DNA from: Dyella subtropica
GTDB lineage: Bacteria; Pseudomonadota; Gammaproteobacteria; Xanthomonadales; Rhodanobacteraceae
Length of the DNA stretch: 64,000 bases
Assembly (NCBI RefSeq): GCF_026283965.1
Contig: NZ_JAPDPD010000017.1
Location: forward strand, 62,001 to 126,000
Direction: 5' to 3'
Shown here: piece by piece, positions 2,759 to 22,032 of the stretch
How positions within the stretch are numbered: position 1 is the stretch's first letter
How the letters are laid out: every line of letters starts with the position of its first letter
Made by a program: the position numbers and the translations under genes
The notes under the pieces: generated by a model
Told to the model about the DNA's origin: nothing
What the model saw: only the letters and a program-made list of their open reading frames with translations
Database searches by the model: none

Positions 2759-5746
2759 TTATTGCGCTTTCACACTGACGTCGTCGATCACGAACGAGGT
2801 CTGGTTGGTGGCGTTTTCGGTGCCGTAGAAATTGATCTGGATGGTCTGACCGATATAGGCCGACAGATCGACGGTGTGTTCGACGTAGCCGCTGGCGGCG
2901 TCGAGGTTGGACCAGGTCTGCAGCGTGACGTACTGGCCCGCCGGGTTGATCACCTGCGCGCTGAGCTTGTCGTACGCGGTGGTGGTTGTGGTTTCGGCGG
3001 TGTCGATGTGCATGAAGAAGTCCAGCGTGGCCTTAGTGGCGGTTGCCGGGATGGTGATCTTCTGGCGCACATAGTCCGTATGAGTGGTGCCGTAGCCATC
3101 CAGCCAGGCTTTCCAGCTGCCGGTATGGGCCGGTTCGCTGGCGTCGTTGCTGATCACGCCGGTGGTCTGCGTCCACGGCGGGATGCCGCTCTCAAAGCTA
3201 TTGTTCTGAATCAGCTCGGTACCGCCACCACCCGTACTGTTGGAAACGCTGAAGCTCACCGTGCTGCTGGTGCCCACGTTATTCGCTGGGTCGTAGGCCT
3301 TGGCGATCAGGCTGTGCGTGCCATTGGCTAGCTTGGTGGAATCCAGCGACATCTGGTACGGCGCCGCAGTCACGGTGCCGCTCAGCGCGCTGTCAACGTA
3401 GAACTCCACCTTGGTGATGCCGGTGGGGTCGGTCGCGTTCGCCGACAGCGTGATGGTGCCGGAGGTGCCGCTTTCCGACGCGCTCACCGTCGGGGTGCCG
3501 CCTGTGGTGTTGGAGATGTTGAAGCTCACCGCGCTGCTGGTGCCAACGTTATTCGCCGGGTCATAAGCCTTGGCGATCAGCGTGTGGCTGCCATTGCTCA
3601 GCGTGGTGGAGTCCAGCGTGGTCTGGTACGGCGAAGCGGTGAGTGTCGACTTGAGTACGTTGTCGACGTAGAACTCCACCTTGGTGATGCCGGTGGGGTC
3701 GGTCGCGTTCGCCGACAGCGTGATGGTGCCGGAGGTGCCGGTTTCCGACGCGCTCACCGTCGGCGTACCGCCTGTGGTGTTGGAGATATTGAAGCTCACC
3801 GCGCTGCTGGTGCCGACGTTATTCGCCGGGTCATAAGCCTTGGCGATCAGCGTGTGGCTCCCGTTGCTCAGCGTGGTGGAGTCCAGCGGGGTCTGGTACG
3901 GCGAAGCGGTGAGCGTCGACTTGAGTACGTTGTCGACGTAGAACTCCACCTTGGTGATGCCGGTGGGATCAGTGGCGTTGGCCGACAACGTGATGCTGCC
4001 GGACGTACCGCTCTCCGACGCACTGACCGACGGCGGGTTGCCGCCACCAGGACCTTCGGTGACCCACACCGGCGCGGACCACAGCTGATTGCCGTCTTCC
4101 TGCGTGATCTTGGCGTAATAGAAGTGATCGCCATTGGCCGGGGTGATGGTGGTGGTGGCGGTTTGCGAGGTTTCCGTCACCGTGCCGTTGCTGCCCGGCA
4201 CGCCTTCGAATACCTGCACGCGTTGCGCGGTGTGGCCTGCGCTGCTGGCGTAGTTCACCGTAAGGGTCAGCGCGCCGCTGTTGTTGAAGCGCTGGCCCAT
4301 CAGGTTGCCGTTGGCGGTGAGCACGATCTGGCCGGTCTTGTCCTCGGTGGCGAACACGCGGCGCGCGCGCAGTGCATCGAGGAAGCTGCTCAGGCTCAGC
4401 GCGGTGCCGTTGGGGATCAGCACACCGGTGCGGTTGGTGTAGCTGGCGCCCCAGTTGGCGCAGTGGTTGTCCTGGTCGGAGGTGGGCGCCACGTGATAGC
4501 CGCGTTCGAGCAGGATGTTGTAGGCCGGCTCGTAGCTGGTGCGGCTGGTCTCGGTCTCGGTGGTGTTGCTGGAGAACGCCGAACTGTTGAGCACTTCAGC
4601 CAGCGCCATCACTTGATCGCCATCGGCGGTGTAGGCGAGATCGGTACCGCCGACATTGAACTGGCCACTGCTGGCAGGATGATTGAACTGGCCGACCCAG
4701 CCGTTGGTGTTCATCAGCGTGTAGAGCGTGCCGTAATCGCTCTTGGCGGTGAAGATGTCGCCAATCAACTGACCCGAACTGTTGTACTCCCACTCGAGCA
4801 AGCTGGGCGTGTTGAAGATGTTGAGGTGACCGCCATTGCTGATCACACCCCACTCCAGGCCGTAGACGGCGAGGAAGTTGCTATGCGCACTGTTGAACGT
4901 GCTGGCCGCCTGCAACCCTGACTGGTACAGGTTGTGCGCGGTGGCCGGGTTGGCCGAGGGGTTGGTGCCGGTCGAGCCGTCGTACATGTGGTTGTGCTCG
5001 GACGTCATCAGGATGTCCAAGCCTTCGTTCAAGGCGTACTGGTAGGCATCCGCCGGGCCGTAGGCACCGCTCTGCGGGTTCTGTGCACCGACACACGTGG
5101 AGAGCACACCACCGCCGTCGCTGTGGTTGGTCTGGCTGTGCAGGTTGCCGTAGAAGATGGTGTACGGCAGGCCGCCGACCGGTACCGACTGGTTGAGCAC
5201 GGCGCCCGTCGTTTTGCTGGTGTGATGCAGTGCGGTGAAGCTAGGCATATGCGGCGCGGCCACGGTGCCGAACTTCACGTCGTACAGTTGCTCTTCGATC
5301 GCCTGCGGCGCACGGGTGCGTGCCAGCTGCAGTGCGTTCTGTGCGAGGCCGGTGCCGATGCGTGCGGCCACGTCGTTGTCCACCGCGATGGCGCGCATGC
5401 GCACGGTGTAGTAGCCGGCGGCCAGCGATTGGCCGGTACGGTCACGGCCATCCCATGCGATGTTGGCCTGCGCGCGACCCGCATTGATCGCGCCCTGGCC
5501 CTGCCAGCTGCGCAATACGGCGCCGCTGCGGTTCAGAACATCGACCTGCCACGCCACCGGCGTGCCCGGTCCGGCGCCCGGATAAGAGAACTGCAAGGTG
5601 ATAGGACGTGCAGCGGCTGCATTGAACGGCACATGCAGCGCAGCTTCGAATTCCTCGTGATCCGGCATGGTCCCCGCCATAACCGGAGCAAATACGAATA
5701 CACCCGCAGCCATCAGGCTGCCGGCAACTATCGTCTTCAACTCCAT
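2759..5746 (-). CDS. Secreted PHP-domain (CehA/McbA-like) metallohydrolase with three Ig-like repeats
   Basis: A 995-residue exported protein. It has a signal peptide (MELKTIVAGSLMAAGVFVF, AGT/M cleavage region), an N-terminal beta-rich domain (residues about 45-125, a FlgD-Ig-like WQVDVLNRSG...WDGRD pattern), then a PHP-like metallophosphoesterase domain (about 190-490). PHP motifs are seen as YGNLHSQTNHSDGGG, TSEHNHMYDG, GLEWGVISNGGHLN, GQFNHPAS and SDQDNHCANWG. The first motif reads H203-S-Q205 where PHP enzymes normally have HxH. Residues about 569-838 are three near-identical Ig-like repeats, and the end (about 845-995) looks like a carbohydrate-binding beta-sandwich (NNSFESG...WTQTTG to VIDDVSVKAQ). 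Likely role: extracellular phosphodiester or phosphoester hydrolysis at a polymer surface; the substrate is unknown. It stands alone, with its own terminator. Confidence 0.8.
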   Translation of the reverse strand: MELKTIVAGSLMAAGVFVFAPVMAGTMPDHEEFEAALHVPFNAAAARPITLQFSYPGAGPGTPVAWQVDVLNRSGAVLRSWQGQGAINAGRAQANIAWDGRDRTGQSLAAGYYTVRMRAIAVDNDVAARIGTGLAQNALQLARTRAPQAIEEQLYDVKFGTVAAPHMPSFTALHHTSKTTGAVLNQSVPVGGLPYTIFYGNLHSQTNHSDGGGVLSTCVGAQNPQSGAYGPADAYQYALNEGLDILMTSEHNHMYDGSTGTNPSANPATAHNLYQSGLQAASTFNSAHSNFLAVYGLEWGVISNGGHLNIFNTPSLLEWEYNSSGQLIGDIFTAKSDYGTLYTLMNTNGWVGQFNHPASSGQFNVGGTDLAYTADGDQVMALAEVLNSSAFSSNTTETETSRTSYEPAYNILLERGYHVAPTSDQDNHCANWGASYTNRTGVLIPNGTALSLSSFLDALRARRVFATEDKTGQIVLTANGNLMGQRFNNSGALTLTVNYASSAGHTAQRVQVFEGVPGSNGTVTETSQTATTTITPANGDHFYYAKITQEDGNQLWSAPVWVTEGPGGGNPPSVSASESGTSGSITLSANATDPTGITKVEFYVDNVLKSTLTASPYQTPLDSTTLSNGSHTLIAKAYDPANNVGTSSAVSFNISNTTGGTPTVSASETGTSGTITLSANATDPTGITKVEFYVDNVLKSTLTASPYQTTLDSTTLSNGSHTLIAKAYDPANNVGTSSAVSFNISNTTGGTPTVSASESGTSGTITLSANATDPTGITKVEFYVDSALSGTVTAAPYQMSLDSTKLANGTHSLIAKAYDPANNVGTSSTVSFSVSNSTGGGGTELIQNNSFESGIPPWTQTTGVISNDASEPAHTGSWKAWLDGYGTTHTDYVRQKITIPATATKATLDFFMHIDTAETTTTTAYDKLSAQVINPAGQYVTLQTWSNLDAASGYVEHTVDLSAYIGQTIQINFYGTENATNQTSFVIDDVSVKAQ
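3232..4041 (-). repeat. Three tandem 270-bp repeats encoding Ig-like domains
   Basis: The segment GAAGCTCACC recurs at 3251, 3521 and 3791, an exact 270-base (90-codon) period. The second and third copies differ by only a few bases and the first is more diverged. Each copy encodes one beta-sandwich domain (ITLSANATDPTGITKVEFYV core). In-frame copy-number change by recombination is expected. Confidence 0.9.
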
Positions 5747-6283: not shown

Positions 6284-8365
6284 ATGAAGACGAAGCCATG
6301 GCTTGGCGCGGCCTTCGCGCTGCTTGTTGCCGTCGGCGTGCAGGCGGCCCCTTCCACCGACCCGCTGCACGGCTGGAGCGGCGGTGACAGCGCCAGTCTG
6401 GATGCGTGGGTGCATGCCCGGATGGACGGCATCAAGGTGCAGCTCGCGAAGCTGCATGCCGTGCAGGGCCAGCGCACGATCGACAACACGCTGGTGCCTT
6501 ATGACGAGGCGCTCAATCAGCTCGGCCTGGCCTTTGGGCAGGCGCATATGCTGAACGCCCTGGGCGCCGACAAGGCCCTGCGCGATAAAGGGCAGGAACT
6601 GCAGCAAGCCCTCTCGGCGGCTGATACGGATATCACCCTCGACGTCGCCACCTACGATGCATTGCGGGCCCTATCGGAATCGGATGCGGGCAAAGCTGCC
6701 GACCCCGCGACCCGCCATTATCTGGATCGCAGCCTGCTCGAGTTCCGGCTGGCTGGCGTCGATCGCGATGCCGCCACCCGCGAACGCATCAGGCAACTGC
6801 GCGACCGGATCGCTGCGCTGGAGCTGAGCTTCAGCCGCAACGTGCAGGAGGACAAACGCCTGCTGAGCGTGACTCCGGACCAGCTGGCAGGCATGCCCAG
6901 CGACTTTATGGCCCGGCACAAACCGGATGCCAGTGGCCGCATCACCCTCTCCACCGACCAGCCCGATGTCACGCCCATAGCGAAGTTCGCCAGTAACGCG
7001 CAGCTACGCAAAGACCTGGCCACGGCGTATCTCAACCGGGGCTGGCCGGCCAACGACAAGGTACTGCGCGAGTTGCTGCAGGCGCGCGAAGAGCTGGCCC
7101 ATCTGCTGAAGTTCGATACGTACGCCGACCTGGCCATGGCGGATCAGATGATCGGCGGCAAGGCCGAAGCCAAGCAGTTTCTCGATCAACTGCAAGCGGC
7201 AGCCGGTCCCGCGGCTGACCGCGAAGCAAGGCTGCTACGCGACTTCGTGCATGGCAAACAAGCGGACACCAGCATCAGCCGCGCCGACTTCAACTACTGG
7301 CAGGAACAGTATCGCAAGGCCACGTACGACTTCGATGCGCAGACGGTGCGTCCGTACTTCCCGTTCAACGCCGTGCAGGCAGGCGTGCTCGACACCGCGG
7401 CGCGCATCTTCCATGTCAGCTTCCGCCCGGTGAGCGATGCCGTGGTGTGGCACCCTGCCGTGACCGTCTTCGATGTACTGGATGACGAAAGAAAGATCGG
7501 CCGCATCTATCTCGACATGCATCCGCGTGACGGCAAGAACCAGGGATGCTCCGCCTGGGCGCTGGTACCGGGCATCGGCGGCCGGCAGATGCCGGAGGGA
7601 GTCGTGGTCTGCAATTTTGCCGGCGGCCATCCGGACGACCACGAACTGAACGACCCCGGGTTGATGGACTACAGCGACGTGGTCACGTTCTTCCATGACT
7701 TCGGCCTGCAGATGCAGCACATCCTCGGCAGCCAGACGCGGTGGTCCGCGCAATCGGCATTCAACGTCGAGCGCGACTTCATCCAGGCGCCGCCGCAGAT
7801 GCTGGAGGAGTTCCTACGCATACCCTCCGTGCTGCAAGGCTTCGCCAGGCACTACAAAACCGGCGAAGTGCTACCGCTGGCCACCATCCAGGCCATGAAT
7901 CGCTCGACGGCCTACGGGCGCGGGTCATGGCTGCAACAACAAATGGTCTCCGCCACCTACGCGTTGCAGATGCACGACCTGCCGGCGCAGGAGATCGATT
8001 TCGGCAAGGTCTGGATGGACGACGAGAAGCGCTTCGCGCCGTACGACAGCCTGGCCGACGCGCATCCCTATGCGAGTTTCACCCATCTGACCGGCTATAC
8101 CTCCAACTACTACACCTATCTGCTGGACAAGGTCATCGCCGTGGACTTCTTCCGGCAGTTTGACACCCGCCATCCCTTCGACAGCCGAGCCGCCATGCGC
8201 TACCGGCAAACCGTCATCGCACCCGGCGCAACGAGACCCGCGGCCGAGCTGGTGAAGCACTTCCTTGGCCGCCCACAGGACATGAAGTCGCTGGCGTCCT
8301 GGATCAACGAGGAGTTCACCGACCCGCCCTCGACGGCGCAGGAGCAGAAGGTGCCCCGCTCTTAG
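6284..8365 (+). CDS. M3-family (oligopeptidase) homolog with a degenerate active site
   Basis: A 693-residue homolog of thimet oligopeptidase/oligopeptidase A with a signal peptide (MKTKPWLGAAFALLVAVGV, cleavage near QAA), so periplasmic. The start at 6284 is chosen because upstream codons lie in the decayed OMF fragment. The fold markers of the family are present, including the C-terminal substrate-binding segment HLTGYTSNYYTY. The catalytic HEFGH reads HDFGL (residues 471-475): the general-base Glu is Asp and the second zinc His is Leu. The third zinc ligand, Glu of the FVEAPSQ motif, is Gln 501 (DFIQAPPQ). Only the first zinc His survives. The frame is open end to end, so this looks like a maintained pseudo-enzyme, perhaps a peptide-binding protein. 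Sequencing error cannot explain three separate substitutions. Confidence 0.88.
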   Translation: MKTKPWLGAAFALLVAVGVQAAPSTDPLHGWSGGDSASLDAWVHARMDGIKVQLAKLHAVQGQRTIDNTLVPYDEALNQLGLAFGQAHMLNALGADKALRDKGQELQQALSAADTDITLDVATYDALRALSESDAGKAADPATRHYLDRSLLEFRLAGVDRDAATRERIRQLRDRIAALELSFSRNVQEDKRLLSVTPDQLAGMPSDFMARHKPDASGRITLSTDQPDVTPIAKFASNAQLRKDLATAYLNRGWPANDKVLRELLQAREELAHLLKFDTYADLAMADQMIGGKAEAKQFLDQLQAAAGPAADREARLLRDFVHGKQADTSISRADFNYWQEQYRKATYDFDAQTVRPYFPFNAVQAGVLDTAARIFHVSFRPVSDAVVWHPAVTVFDVLDDERKIGRIYLDMHPRDGKNQGCSAWALVPGIGGRQMPEGVVVCNFAGGHPDDHELNDPGLMDYSDVVTFFHDFGLQMQHILGSQTRWSAQSAFNVERDFIQAPPQMLEEFLRIPSVLQGFARHYKTGEVLPLATIQAMNRSTAYGRGSWLQQQMVSATYALQMHDLPAQEIDFGKVWMDDEKRFAPYDSLADAHPYASFTHLTGYTSNYYTYLLDKVIAVDFFRQFDTRHPFDSRAAMRYRQTVIAPGATRPAAELVKHFLGRPQDMKSLASWINEEFTDPPSTAQEQKVPRS

Positions 8366-19388: not shown

Positions 19389-19844
19389 AGCCCATCTCCT
19401 CGTCATGGCGCCCACGGCGCCATCGGAGGTGGGCCGGACTTCCCTAGTCGAGGAAAGCGCCAGCCGACCGCAGGCGGTCGCCGCAGACAATCAGCTTGTT
19501 ATGCAATGCCGGCACCCGATGCTCGCGGATGTCGACGTTGCGACTAGGGTAAACGTCCATATGCCTTGGTTTGGTCGGACAGGGATGCCACGGGCGCGAC
19601 GCGCCGGGTGGCGCGCGCATTGTCTTGCTGCACTGCGGGGTTGTCAACCTTCGGAAAGAGAGAATGCGGCCGAAAGTTCATGCGTTCGCCATGAAACCGT
19701 TCGCCCGGCCATCGTCGGTGCCATCGGGCGTTGCGGATCGTGGAAGCGTCCCCGCTTTCGCGGTAGTTTGGCGCCCGATTGTCCAGAGGACTGCCGGCAC
19801 CGCATCTCGATCAAAACGACACGCCACCGCGGAGGAGATAGACC
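19389..19844. other. 456-bp divergent intergenic region
   Basis: It separates the mgtA-strand small ORF from the radical SAM operon. Open frames in it are shadows or too poor to support. The last 20 bases carry the strong ribosome-binding site of the radical SAM gene (GGAGGAG, 8 bases before ATG 19845). Promoters for both sides presumably lie here, but no clear -35/-10 pair was found. Confidence 0.4.
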
Positions 19845-20864
19845 ATGCAAGCTCAGGTCACGGTTACTCGCGAGCGACTCGATTTTATCTGGCTGGAACT
19901 CACCGCACGCTGCAATCTGGAATGCGTCCATTGTTACGCGGACTCCGGACCCAAGCGACCTCTGTCCGAAGGCATGAACCTCGCCGATTGGTTCGACGCG
20001 CTGGATCAAGCTGCTGCGCTTGGCTGCAAGAAGGTGCAGTTCATCGGTGGCGAGCCGACACTCTATCCCGGCTTGCCGGCATTGATCGGACATGCGCGCA
20101 AGCTCGGCTACGAGCATGTTTGCGTCTACACCAACGGCACGCATTTCAGCGAAGACCTGAAAGCGGTTTTTCTCCAGCATCGGGTCAACCTGGCGTTTTC
20201 CGTTTATGGCTCGACCGGCGCGGTGCACGATCAGGTCACGCGCCGCAACGGCAGTTTCGACAAGACCGATCGCGCCTTGCGCTGGGCGGTCGACGCCGGC
20301 CTGCCCGTGCGTGCCAGCATCATCGCAATGAAAGCCAATGCCCACGACGTGCATGAAGCCGAACAGCGGCTGCGCGAAGCCGGCGTCGCCGCCGTACATG
20401 TCGATCGCTTGCGCGGACTCGGACGCGGTTCGCATGAGCGTTCGTCGCAACCGCCATTGAAAGAACTCTGCGGGCGTTGCCGCGACGGGAAGGTTTGCGT
20501 CAGCTCGGATGGGGAGATCTACCCCTGTGTATTCGCGCGCTTCGCCTCGCTCGGACACGTCAGCCGTGGCGGCTTGAGCGCGGCTTTCGGCGGCCAGGCA
20601 TTGCGTGATTTCCGCGACGCCTTGATCGAGGCTCATAGCGCCGCGATACCACGCGCGCTCAATGCATCGATGTGCTCGCCCGAACAACCCGCGCCACCGT
20701 GTACGCCAGAGCGCGATCCTGGACAATGTGGGCCAGAGATCGATCCCGGACCATGCGGACCTGAAATCCCGGCCCCGGACTGCAGCCCGGAAAAGCCCAG
20801 CATTGGCTGCCCACCGGAGCAGACGGCCTACCGCCCCAACCCCTTCATCAGCAAATCGCTCTGA
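19845..20864 (+). CDS. Radical SAM enzyme with SPASM-like domain and a tail of six Cys-x-Pro-Glu repeats
   Basis: A 339-residue protein. The radical SAM cluster motif is C23-x3-C27-x2-C30 (ARCNLECVHCYA), followed by GGEP at 68-71 for SAM binding. A short auxiliary-cluster region has C209, C212, C218 and C228 (SSDGEIYPC), resembling the SPASM/twitch region of peptide-modifying enzymes such as PqqE. The last 63 residues are unusual: six exact 9-residue units, each beginning C-x-P-E, with Cys at 277, 286, 295, 304, 313 and 322. GGAGGAG precedes the start and an amidohydrolase follows after 10 bases. The tail could be a substrate carried in cis, a metal-cluster ligand or a binding arm; which is unknown. 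Cys-Pro-rich tails occur on some actinobacterial radical SAM proteins as I recall them, so horizontal origin is possible. Confidence 0.9.
   Translation: MQAQVTVTRERLDFIWLELTARCNLECVHCYADSGPKRPLSEGMNLADWFDALDQAAALGCKKVQFIGGEPTLYPGLPALIGHARKLGYEHVCVYTNGTHFSEDLKAVFLQHRVNLAFSVYGSTGAVHDQVTRRNGSFDKTDRALRWAVDAGLPVRASIIAMKANAHDVHEAEQRLREAGVAAVHVDRLRGLGRGSHERSSQPPLKELCGRCRDGKVCVSSDGEIYPCVFARFASLGHVSRGGLSAAFGGQALRDFRDALIEAHSAAIPRALNASMCSPEQPAPPCTPERDPGQCGPEIDPGPCGPEIPAPDCSPEKPSIGCPPEQTAYRPNPFISKSL
20673..20834 (+). repeat. Six tandem 27-bp coding repeats (C-x-P-E nonapeptides)
   Basis: Each 27-base unit starts with a TGC/TGT codon and encodes Cys-x-Pro-Glu plus five variable residues, often including Pro. 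The x residues are S, T, G, G, S, P in order. Codons for the invariant Cys, Pro and Glu vary between units (TGC/TGT; CCC/CCA/CCT/CCG; GAA/GAG), so the protein pattern is kept while the DNA has diverged. Confidence 0.92.
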
Positions 20865-20874
20865 AGGACGCGGG

Positions 20875-22032
20875 ATGAAAAGCGGCTTTCGCGTCTTCGA
20901 TGCCGACCTGCATACCATCGAGCCGGACGATCTGTGGTCACGCCATCTCGATGAACGGTACAGGACGCTCGCACCCCGCCCGCGGCCTGCCGCGGGCTCG
21001 CCGCATCCAACGACGAAAGAGCGGCACGAACACTATCGCAAGGCATCCGCGGCGGGTTACGACCCGCCCTCGCACTTGCAGGCGATGGCTATCGAAGGGA
21101 TCGATGTTGCCGTGCTGTTCGGCACCCGCGGGCGGCACGTGCAGATGCATGACGACATCGACCCTTCCTTTGCCGACGCCCTGGCGCGTGCGCACAACGA
21201 CTGGACGCACGACTTCTGCTCCCATGATCCACAGCGGCTCAAGTTCGCTGCGCAAATCGCCTATCACGACGTGGGGCTTGCGGTGAAGGAAGTGAAGCGT
21301 GCCGTGGAACAACTCGGCGCCGTCGCCGTGATCGGCAATCCCAACCCGGTCAACGGCCAGCACATCCACGATCCCTATTTCGAACCGCTGTGGCAGGCCA
21401 TCGAAGACCTCGGCGTACCCGTTTGTTTTCATCCCACCGGCGTATGGACACTGCGCGACGATATCGGGCGCCGTTTTATCGATCACAGCGGCGGACGCTT
21501 GATCGCCGACGCCGCGCGCAATCCGCTCGAACTGATGCTCGCTTTCGCGAGCCTGGTCGCTGGCGGCGTTCTCGAACGGCACCCCGGACTCACATGCGCT
21601 TTTCTCGAAGGCGGCTGCGGCTGGGTGCCCTGGTGGCTATGGCGCCTGGACGATACGTACGAAAAATTTCCGGAGGACCTGGACGTCCCGTTGGCGCTTC
21701 GACCTAGCGACTATTTTCACAGGCAATGCTATGTATCCGCCGATGCCGGCGAGCAATACCTGGCGGAGGTCGTCGCCGCCATCGGCGATACCCGCATCGT
21801 CATGGCCACCGATTACCCTCACCGCGACAGCATGTTTCCAGACGCCGTCAGCACCTTTGTCGCGCGCCAGGATCTGTCCATGCAAACAAAATCCCGCATC
21901 CTGTGGAATAACGGCGCGCGCTTGTATCGCCGAGCCATGGCAGATGCCCAGCCCGCCCCTGTGGATGCTCTGAGCAAATCGACGCAGCCGTCACCGGTAA
22001 ACGGCGCGGACCGTGTTTACGACACCGGCTGA
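20875..22032 (+). CDS. Amidohydrolase family (ACMSD-like, amidohydrolase 2) protein
   Basis: A 385-residue TIM-barrel metal hydrolase/decarboxylase. Start 20875 ([13 protein letters not shown], with AAGGA upstream) lies 10 bases after the radical SAM stop, so the two are almost certainly one operon. Visible metal-site elements: [14 protein letters not shown] at the N-terminus, VCFHPTGV near residue 185, [12 protein letters not shown] near 245, and [15 protein letters not shown] near 310. Family members hydrolyse or decarboxylate small amide/acid substrates; the substrate here is unknown. With its partner it may process a modified peptide or a small metabolite derived from it. The 3' end overlaps the convergent ctaB by 16 bases. 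Confidence 0.88.

Follow-up and report, generated by a model that had tools for sequence, protein, structure and literature searches.

The radical SAM gene and its neighborhood

The window, which is the whole stretch of 64,000 nucleotides of the Dyella subtropica genome that was analyzed, contains on its forward strand (19845..20864) an open reading frame for a radical SAM protein of 339 amino acids with a C-terminal tail of Cys-x-Pro (CxP) units. The radical SAM domain (residues 18-171; 19896..20357, forward strand; Pfam PF04055, 76.5 bits) contains the CxxxCxxC motif as C23xxxC27xxC30. The short SPASM/twitch-like motif C209xxC212x5C218x9C228 (20469..20528, forward strand) is matched by Pfam PF13186 above the cut-off but weakly (24.4 bits versus 21.5). 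A full SPASM domain is defined by a seven-Cys motif; before its tail the window protein has only C209, C212, C218 (which is unconserved) and C228, and the domain is better described as twitch-like. The only Pfam families found in the protein are Radical_SAM, SPASM and Fer4_12, and the same scan found no alpha-N-methyltransferase domain. A linker that is variable in sequence according to a pN/pS comparison (20529..20672, forward strand) connects the SPASM motif to six C-x-P-E nonapeptide units (20673..20834, forward strand), the proposed substrate tail, for which the AlphaFold pLDDT is about 46-52.

An amidohydrolase of 385 amino acids (Amidohydro_2 by Pfam; 20875..22032, forward strand) is encoded from 10 nt past the stop codon of the radical SAM gene, and its closest sequence in the PDB is PtmU3 (E 1.8e-32). 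The two genes are located between a putative mgtA (a P-type ATPase by Pfam) and a putative cyoE (identified by eye), and two Dyella genomes carry the pair at this site as well. A segment of approximately 2.4 kb that includes both genes (19649..22028) has no match at the site in five of five congeners, where the flanking sequences are 105 to 524 nt apart, and outside the site these congeners have no near homolog either (best E about 4e-12, with none in G004). As judged from these alignments, the pair may be either a two-gene insertion or a remnant, loss and transfer being indistinguishable. No peptidase or peptide exporter was recognized by eye among the neighboring ORFs of the window. At 3238-4035 the window also contains a 270-bp unit in three tandem copies with 89% matches.

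The nonapeptide repeats of the window protein

The initial annotation of this DNA had described six C-x-P-E repeats of strict periodicity, and recounting bears this out: the last 63 residues open with six nonapeptides that start at Cys 277, 286, 295, 304, 313 and 322, exactly nine residues apart. When the letters of the tail were shuffled 200,000 times, two or more CxPE were obtained in 0.9% of shuffles and three or more in 0.02%. The annotation had also argued from differences in codon usage that the pattern is not due to recent duplication of DNA. The codons at the invariant positions do vary between units (TGC/TGT for Cys; CCC/CCA/CCT/CCG for Pro; GAA/GAG for Glu), but the second part of that argument does not stand as made: units 2 and 3 are identical at 21 of 27 nucleotides, and both Dyella relatives lack one of the units present in the window around this position, so that one unit is probably the product of a fairly recent duplication. 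The number of units, when compared across homologs as the annotation had recommended, does vary, from five to nine among the six members of the CxPE clade, as in multi-core precursors. A period of nine residues prevails in the window protein and in eight of 80 relatives (L027-L034). The nine-residue period and the Glu are local traits; C-x-P is the family-wide rule.

A family of CxP-tailed radical SAM proteins

Among 99 genomes, including that of the window, 81 have some match to the radical SAM protein, but a near full-length match was found only in the window and in the two Dyella (71 and 73% identity). A scan of genome contigs gave 362 relatives, of which the best 80 were taken; the counts that follow are over 80 members, with the window protein added and L057 set aside as a broken ORF, the tail of which is in another frame. 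A SPASM motif of the kind seen in the window protein was found in 80 of 81 proteins, L057 being the exception, and the short motif of many Actinobacteria has three Cys only. After the SPASM motif, 488 of 519 Cys residues are in the context C-x-P, and 74 of the 80 members have at least three CxP, so the possibility raised by the initial annotation that homologs without repeats are the rule was decided in the opposite sense. The six members with fewer than three CxP have none (L036, L043, L053) or two (L094, L098 and L045, the last of these at a contig end). By contrast, the last 110 residues of 19 other radical SAM proteins used as a control contain 79 Cys but only nine CxP, and none of the 19 has three. 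CxP is retained in members from several phyla, in tails with 0 to 14 Cys at spacings mostly of three to nine residues (4 in 106 cases, 9 in 71, 6 in 71, 3 in 52, 5 in 49 and 7 in 39, plus others). An acidic residue follows the tail Cys at position +3 in 125 of 519 cases, so that a single type of bond from Cys to a carboxylate cannot explain the whole family, and this candidate was rejected.

A search for separate CxP peptides near the tailed enzymes gave none that was convincing; on inspection by eye the other candidates are mostly out-of-frame, antisense or contig-edge ORFs, and the Cys-rich ORF of the window overlaps the amidohydrolase gene out of frame. Adjoining Cys-rich ORFs occur at tailed loci at the background frequency (23/98 versus 105/452). 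Two of the tail-less members have neighbors of possible interest. An ORF with 13 Cys (L053, 161-532) precedes one of them and may encode either a substrate distinct from the enzyme or a protein of zinc-ribbon type; the other, from a Micrarchaeota MAG (L036, 2800-3950), is followed by a possible ORF for a peptide of 58 amino acids, by an ATP-grasp peptide-maturase-like gene that scores below the cut-off and by a methyltransferase gene. Two distant tailed members adjoin genes of possible tail-cleaving enzymes, namely a subtilase by Pfam (L044, 3640-5769) and an astacin-like metalloprotease (L071, 3844-4917).

Selection on the tail

The pN/pS values of core, linker and tail are, respectively, 0.34, 0.53 and 0.09 in 20 Streptomyces-type members, 0.17, 0.22 and 0.15 in seven Lentzea, and 0.32, 0.61 and 0.37 in the six-member CxPE clade, all to be read with the caveats of partly saturated synonymous sites and an uncertain repeat alignment. 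In the Streptomyces-type proteins the tail evolves more slowly than the other segments and contains CGPCGPCVPSVGHCDP at near-fixed spacing (C-x2-C-x2-C); in the CxPE clade, to which the window protein belongs, the constraint on the tail is similar to that on the core and no stronger.

Predicted structure

In the AlphaFold models of the window protein and of one Streptomyces homolog the core is predicted with confidence and the tail is disordered, and docking of the tail with AlphaFold was accordingly set aside. Among the 50 PDB matches listed by Foldseek for the window model, the best is SkfB (E 6.4e-18), followed by BlsE, SuiB, anSME, EpeE and the sactipeptide maturase 5why; SkfB is also the top match by sequence. 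The best fold matches include SkfB, SuiB, EpeE and the 5why/5wgg maturase (CteB), and none of these four is known to have a CxP tail. BlsE, MoaA and viperin, which are enzymes of small molecules, are likewise among the 50 matches listed. Peptide-acting enzymes lead the fold matches, but the fold is not decisive by itself. In a comparison with NCBIfam maturase models, 60 families match at E 0.01 or better, and none of the 25 listed reaches its cut-off.

Partner genes

A homolog of the amidohydrolase (57-80% identity by tblastn) is encoded within 40 nt downstream in six of 80 loci (L027, L028, L029, L030, L031 and L033), and no such homolog was found within 40 nt downstream in the other two loci with a nine-residue period (L032 and L034). 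At L032, from position 7079 onwards, an ORF that is ferredoxin-like by its Cys residues directly follows a member with approximately ten tail Cys. The neighbors in Actinobacteria, each identified by a Pfam scan of one representative, are an AAA ATPase (18 loci), an APH-type phosphotransferase (20 loci) and an orphan ORF of 115 amino acids near 20 Streptomyces-type loci. The neighboring ATPase matches many defense ATPases, as AAA ATPases do; an anti-phage role was considered and set aside, the radical SAM proteins matching only viperin models and over part of their length.

Plasmid homologs were sampled as 21 of the 25 listed, among 338 plasmid records with matches. In 15 of these 21, two unannotated ones included, a methyltransferase gene is directly downstream, and in six it is not (L021-L024, L026 and L129); a gene annotated as a cytochrome P450 is located shortly before the homolog on the Amycolatopsis japonica plasmid (L026, 4675-5871). 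All eight plasmid methyltransferases that were scanned match TIGR04188, the 'ATP-grasp peptide maturase system methyltransferase' model, over nearly its full length (E 8e-70 to 8e-79), with scores of 236-266 bits that are under the family cut-off of 380. No ATP-grasp peptide maturase is annotated at the loci of the plasmid subclade, where some genes are annotated as 'ATP-binding protein'. No relative of the plasmid methyltransferase was found beside any of the 80 genome loci (E 1e-5), and thus the pairing marks one subclade only. The dipeptides D-S or D-T occur in the tails of 15 of 15 methyltransferase-paired members versus 11 of 83 others, a comparison that leaves out four rows with at most one CxP, ignores shared descent and rests on 13 distinct tails, several of them close kin. 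Peptide-aspartyl methyltransferases (PAMTs) are described as acting mostly on aspartates of cyclized peptides (PMC11285071); such a preference would be compatible with ring formation by the radical SAM enzyme.

A related clade with separate Cys-rich peptides

A phylum-wide sample of 398 genomes contains 38, that of the window among them, with a match of E no higher than 1e-25. Nine of these matches (L139-L147) have no CxP tail and have approximately 90 extra residues at the N-terminus, in which no Pfam match, to PqqD/RRE or otherwise, was found at E 0.1 (three proteins scanned); most of the nine keep later SPASM Cys, which are missing in most tailed members by sequence comparison. A tree from a quick search, with some long branches, separates a single group of 29 members of the window family and eight rows of the related clade from 12 other radical SAM proteins (SH-aLRT 96). 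The related clade is placed either as a sister of the tailed family or inside it, and fusion and fission are therefore indistinguishable.

None of the 22 loci of the related clade encodes an enzyme with a CxP tail. An upstream ORF with at least four Cys was flagged in 20 of the 22 loci, or 19 without that of L154, which looks spurious by eye; at the two loci that gave none (L160 and L165) the contigs end too soon upstream. From these ORFs, 17 peptides were extracted by the leader pattern RRxLL...YxPP, with those of L158 and L159 falling outside the pattern. All 17 peptides contain at least two CxP, and together they contain 178 core Cys with 40 CxP, versus 13.4 expected by shuffling, although CxP accounts for a minority of their Cys, unlike in the tails. 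No NCBIfam match was found for the eight peptides of the clade that were scanned. The gene order at L149 is peptide, radical SAM protein, PqqD (by Pfam) and HprK-related kinase (below the cut-off), and L148, L150 and L151 resemble it, with similar small ORFs at the position of PqqD. The 22 loci (L148-L169) have the appearance of a RiPP-like operon type, in which Cys-rich peptides with a twin-arginine-like RRxLL...YxPP leader accompany a radical SAM enzyme, and the four of them that were read (L148-L151) add PqqD-like and kinase-like genes.

Interpretation and alternatives

The window protein is probably, though not by a wide measure, a radical SAM enzyme of peptide maturation that carries its own CxP substrate in the same chain. 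By analogy with its superfamily, the N-terminal domain would bind SAM at a [4Fe-4S] cluster and generate a radical; the flexible linker would allow the C-terminal repeats to reach the active site, and the enzyme would then modify its own Cys-x-Pro units one after another. The modification would most likely be formation of a thioether at Cys, for which a nearby Glu is one possible acceptor in the CxPE tails. A partner enzyme may then tailor the tail: the amidohydrolase in the window, an enzyme resembling peptide-aspartyl methyltransferases on many Streptomyces plasmids, and other enzymes elsewhere. Because CxP is found both as a conserved tail and in the leader-bearing peptides of the related clade, a substrate role for the tail is the simplest account.

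The initial annotation had offered three ideas for the tail, namely a substrate carried in cis, a scaffold for Fe-S clusters and a metal-binding arm. Selection on the tail, the separate CxP peptides and the peptide-methyltransferase-like partners of one subclade favor the first, and the other two retain a smaller but appreciable share of probability. If the CxP Cys instead serve as ligands of at least one auxiliary Fe-S cluster, or of another metal, required for action on an unrelated substrate, which is unlikely but has to be taken seriously, then the absence from most tailed members of the late SPASM Cys, close to where the tail begins, could be made good by tail Cys acting as cluster ligands. 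The three-Cys SPASM motif of many Actinobacteria points the same way, a near-invariant Streptomyces tail with CGPCGPCVPSVGHCDP at near-fixed spacing would also suit a structural ligand, and the ferredoxin-like ORF of L032 would fit redox work equally well. On the other hand, Cys that vary so widely in number and in spacing are ill suited to a fixed cluster site, CxP is present also in peptides that are separate from the enzyme, and the D-S/T tails with their methyltransferase partners would be left unexplained.

It is also conceivable, with a distinctly lower probability, that the tail is modified but no peptide is released, and that it stays on as a prosthetic group or redox arm for the enzyme or its partner. 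The amidohydrolase, as the sole linked gene between the putative mgtA and cyoE, is compatible with such an arrangement, as is the strong selection on Streptomyces-type tails, but in the related clade the peptides have genes of their own and a twin-arginine-like leader, and the product in that clade is thus likely to be independent. That the tail is only a low-complexity extension for docking or solubility is very improbable: its disorder in both AlphaFold models would be expected of such an extension, but a tail pN/pS below that of the catalytic core in the 20 Streptomyces-type members and the retention of CxP across several phyla would not.

With respect to known systems, the preferred reading of a maturase fused to its own substrate is closest in design to the borosins (OphMA; types I-III), described as self-modifying enzymes fused to a C-terminal core peptide (PMC8429565, PMC11285071). 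Like the borosins as they are described there, the window protein would combine a peptide-modifying enzyme with its own C-terminal core, the tail being fused and conserved and its self-modification putative; the borosin enzyme is an N-methyltransferase, whereas the window protein has a radical SAM/SPASM domain and a tail rich in Cys and Pro. The ranthipeptide maturase PapB, which is reported to tolerate Cys-Xn-Asp with n of 0-6 (PMC9413430), is comparable as a radical SAM enzyme whose targets are repeated Cys...Asp/Glu units, but its substrate PapA is described there as separate and with a leader, whereas the CxPE units of the window are inside the enzyme and the acidic residue at +3 is not family-wide. 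The methyltransferases of TIGR04188 and the PAMTs are related to the present family by the near full-length match of the partners in one Streptomyces plasmid subclade, which are nevertheless below the family cut-off. The operons of the related clade (L148-L151) share a related radical SAM core and the occurrence of CxP in Cys-rich peptides, and differ in having a leader-bearing peptide encoded by its own gene, a PqqD-like gene, an N-terminal extension of approximately 90 amino acids and later SPASM Cys. By analogy of its mode of working, the window protein may be called a fused RiPP maturase, with no named RiPP class assigned. No earlier description of a CxP-tailed radical SAM family was found among the titles and abstract openings listed from the open-access literature, subscription papers and preprints being outside the scope of the search.

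A wider proposal, to which slightly less than even confidence is attached, is that the window protein belongs to a widespread family of radical SAM proteins that modify multi-unit CxP substrates in their own chain, that fusion or fission connects this family to the lineage whose CxP precursors are separate, and that the tailoring partners differ from clade to clade; in the window the tail, once modified, might remain on the enzyme as a prosthetic group of its own making. If the tail is a substrate, the family would be a radical SAM counterpart to the borosins, in which enzyme and substrate are one chain and the number of repeats is free to vary, and separate Cys-rich peptides would be tied to the same enzyme lineage as the CxP tails. 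Genome mining for short precursor genes would miss such fused substrates. With no leader recognition required, the chemistry would be easy to test and to apply to new sequences.
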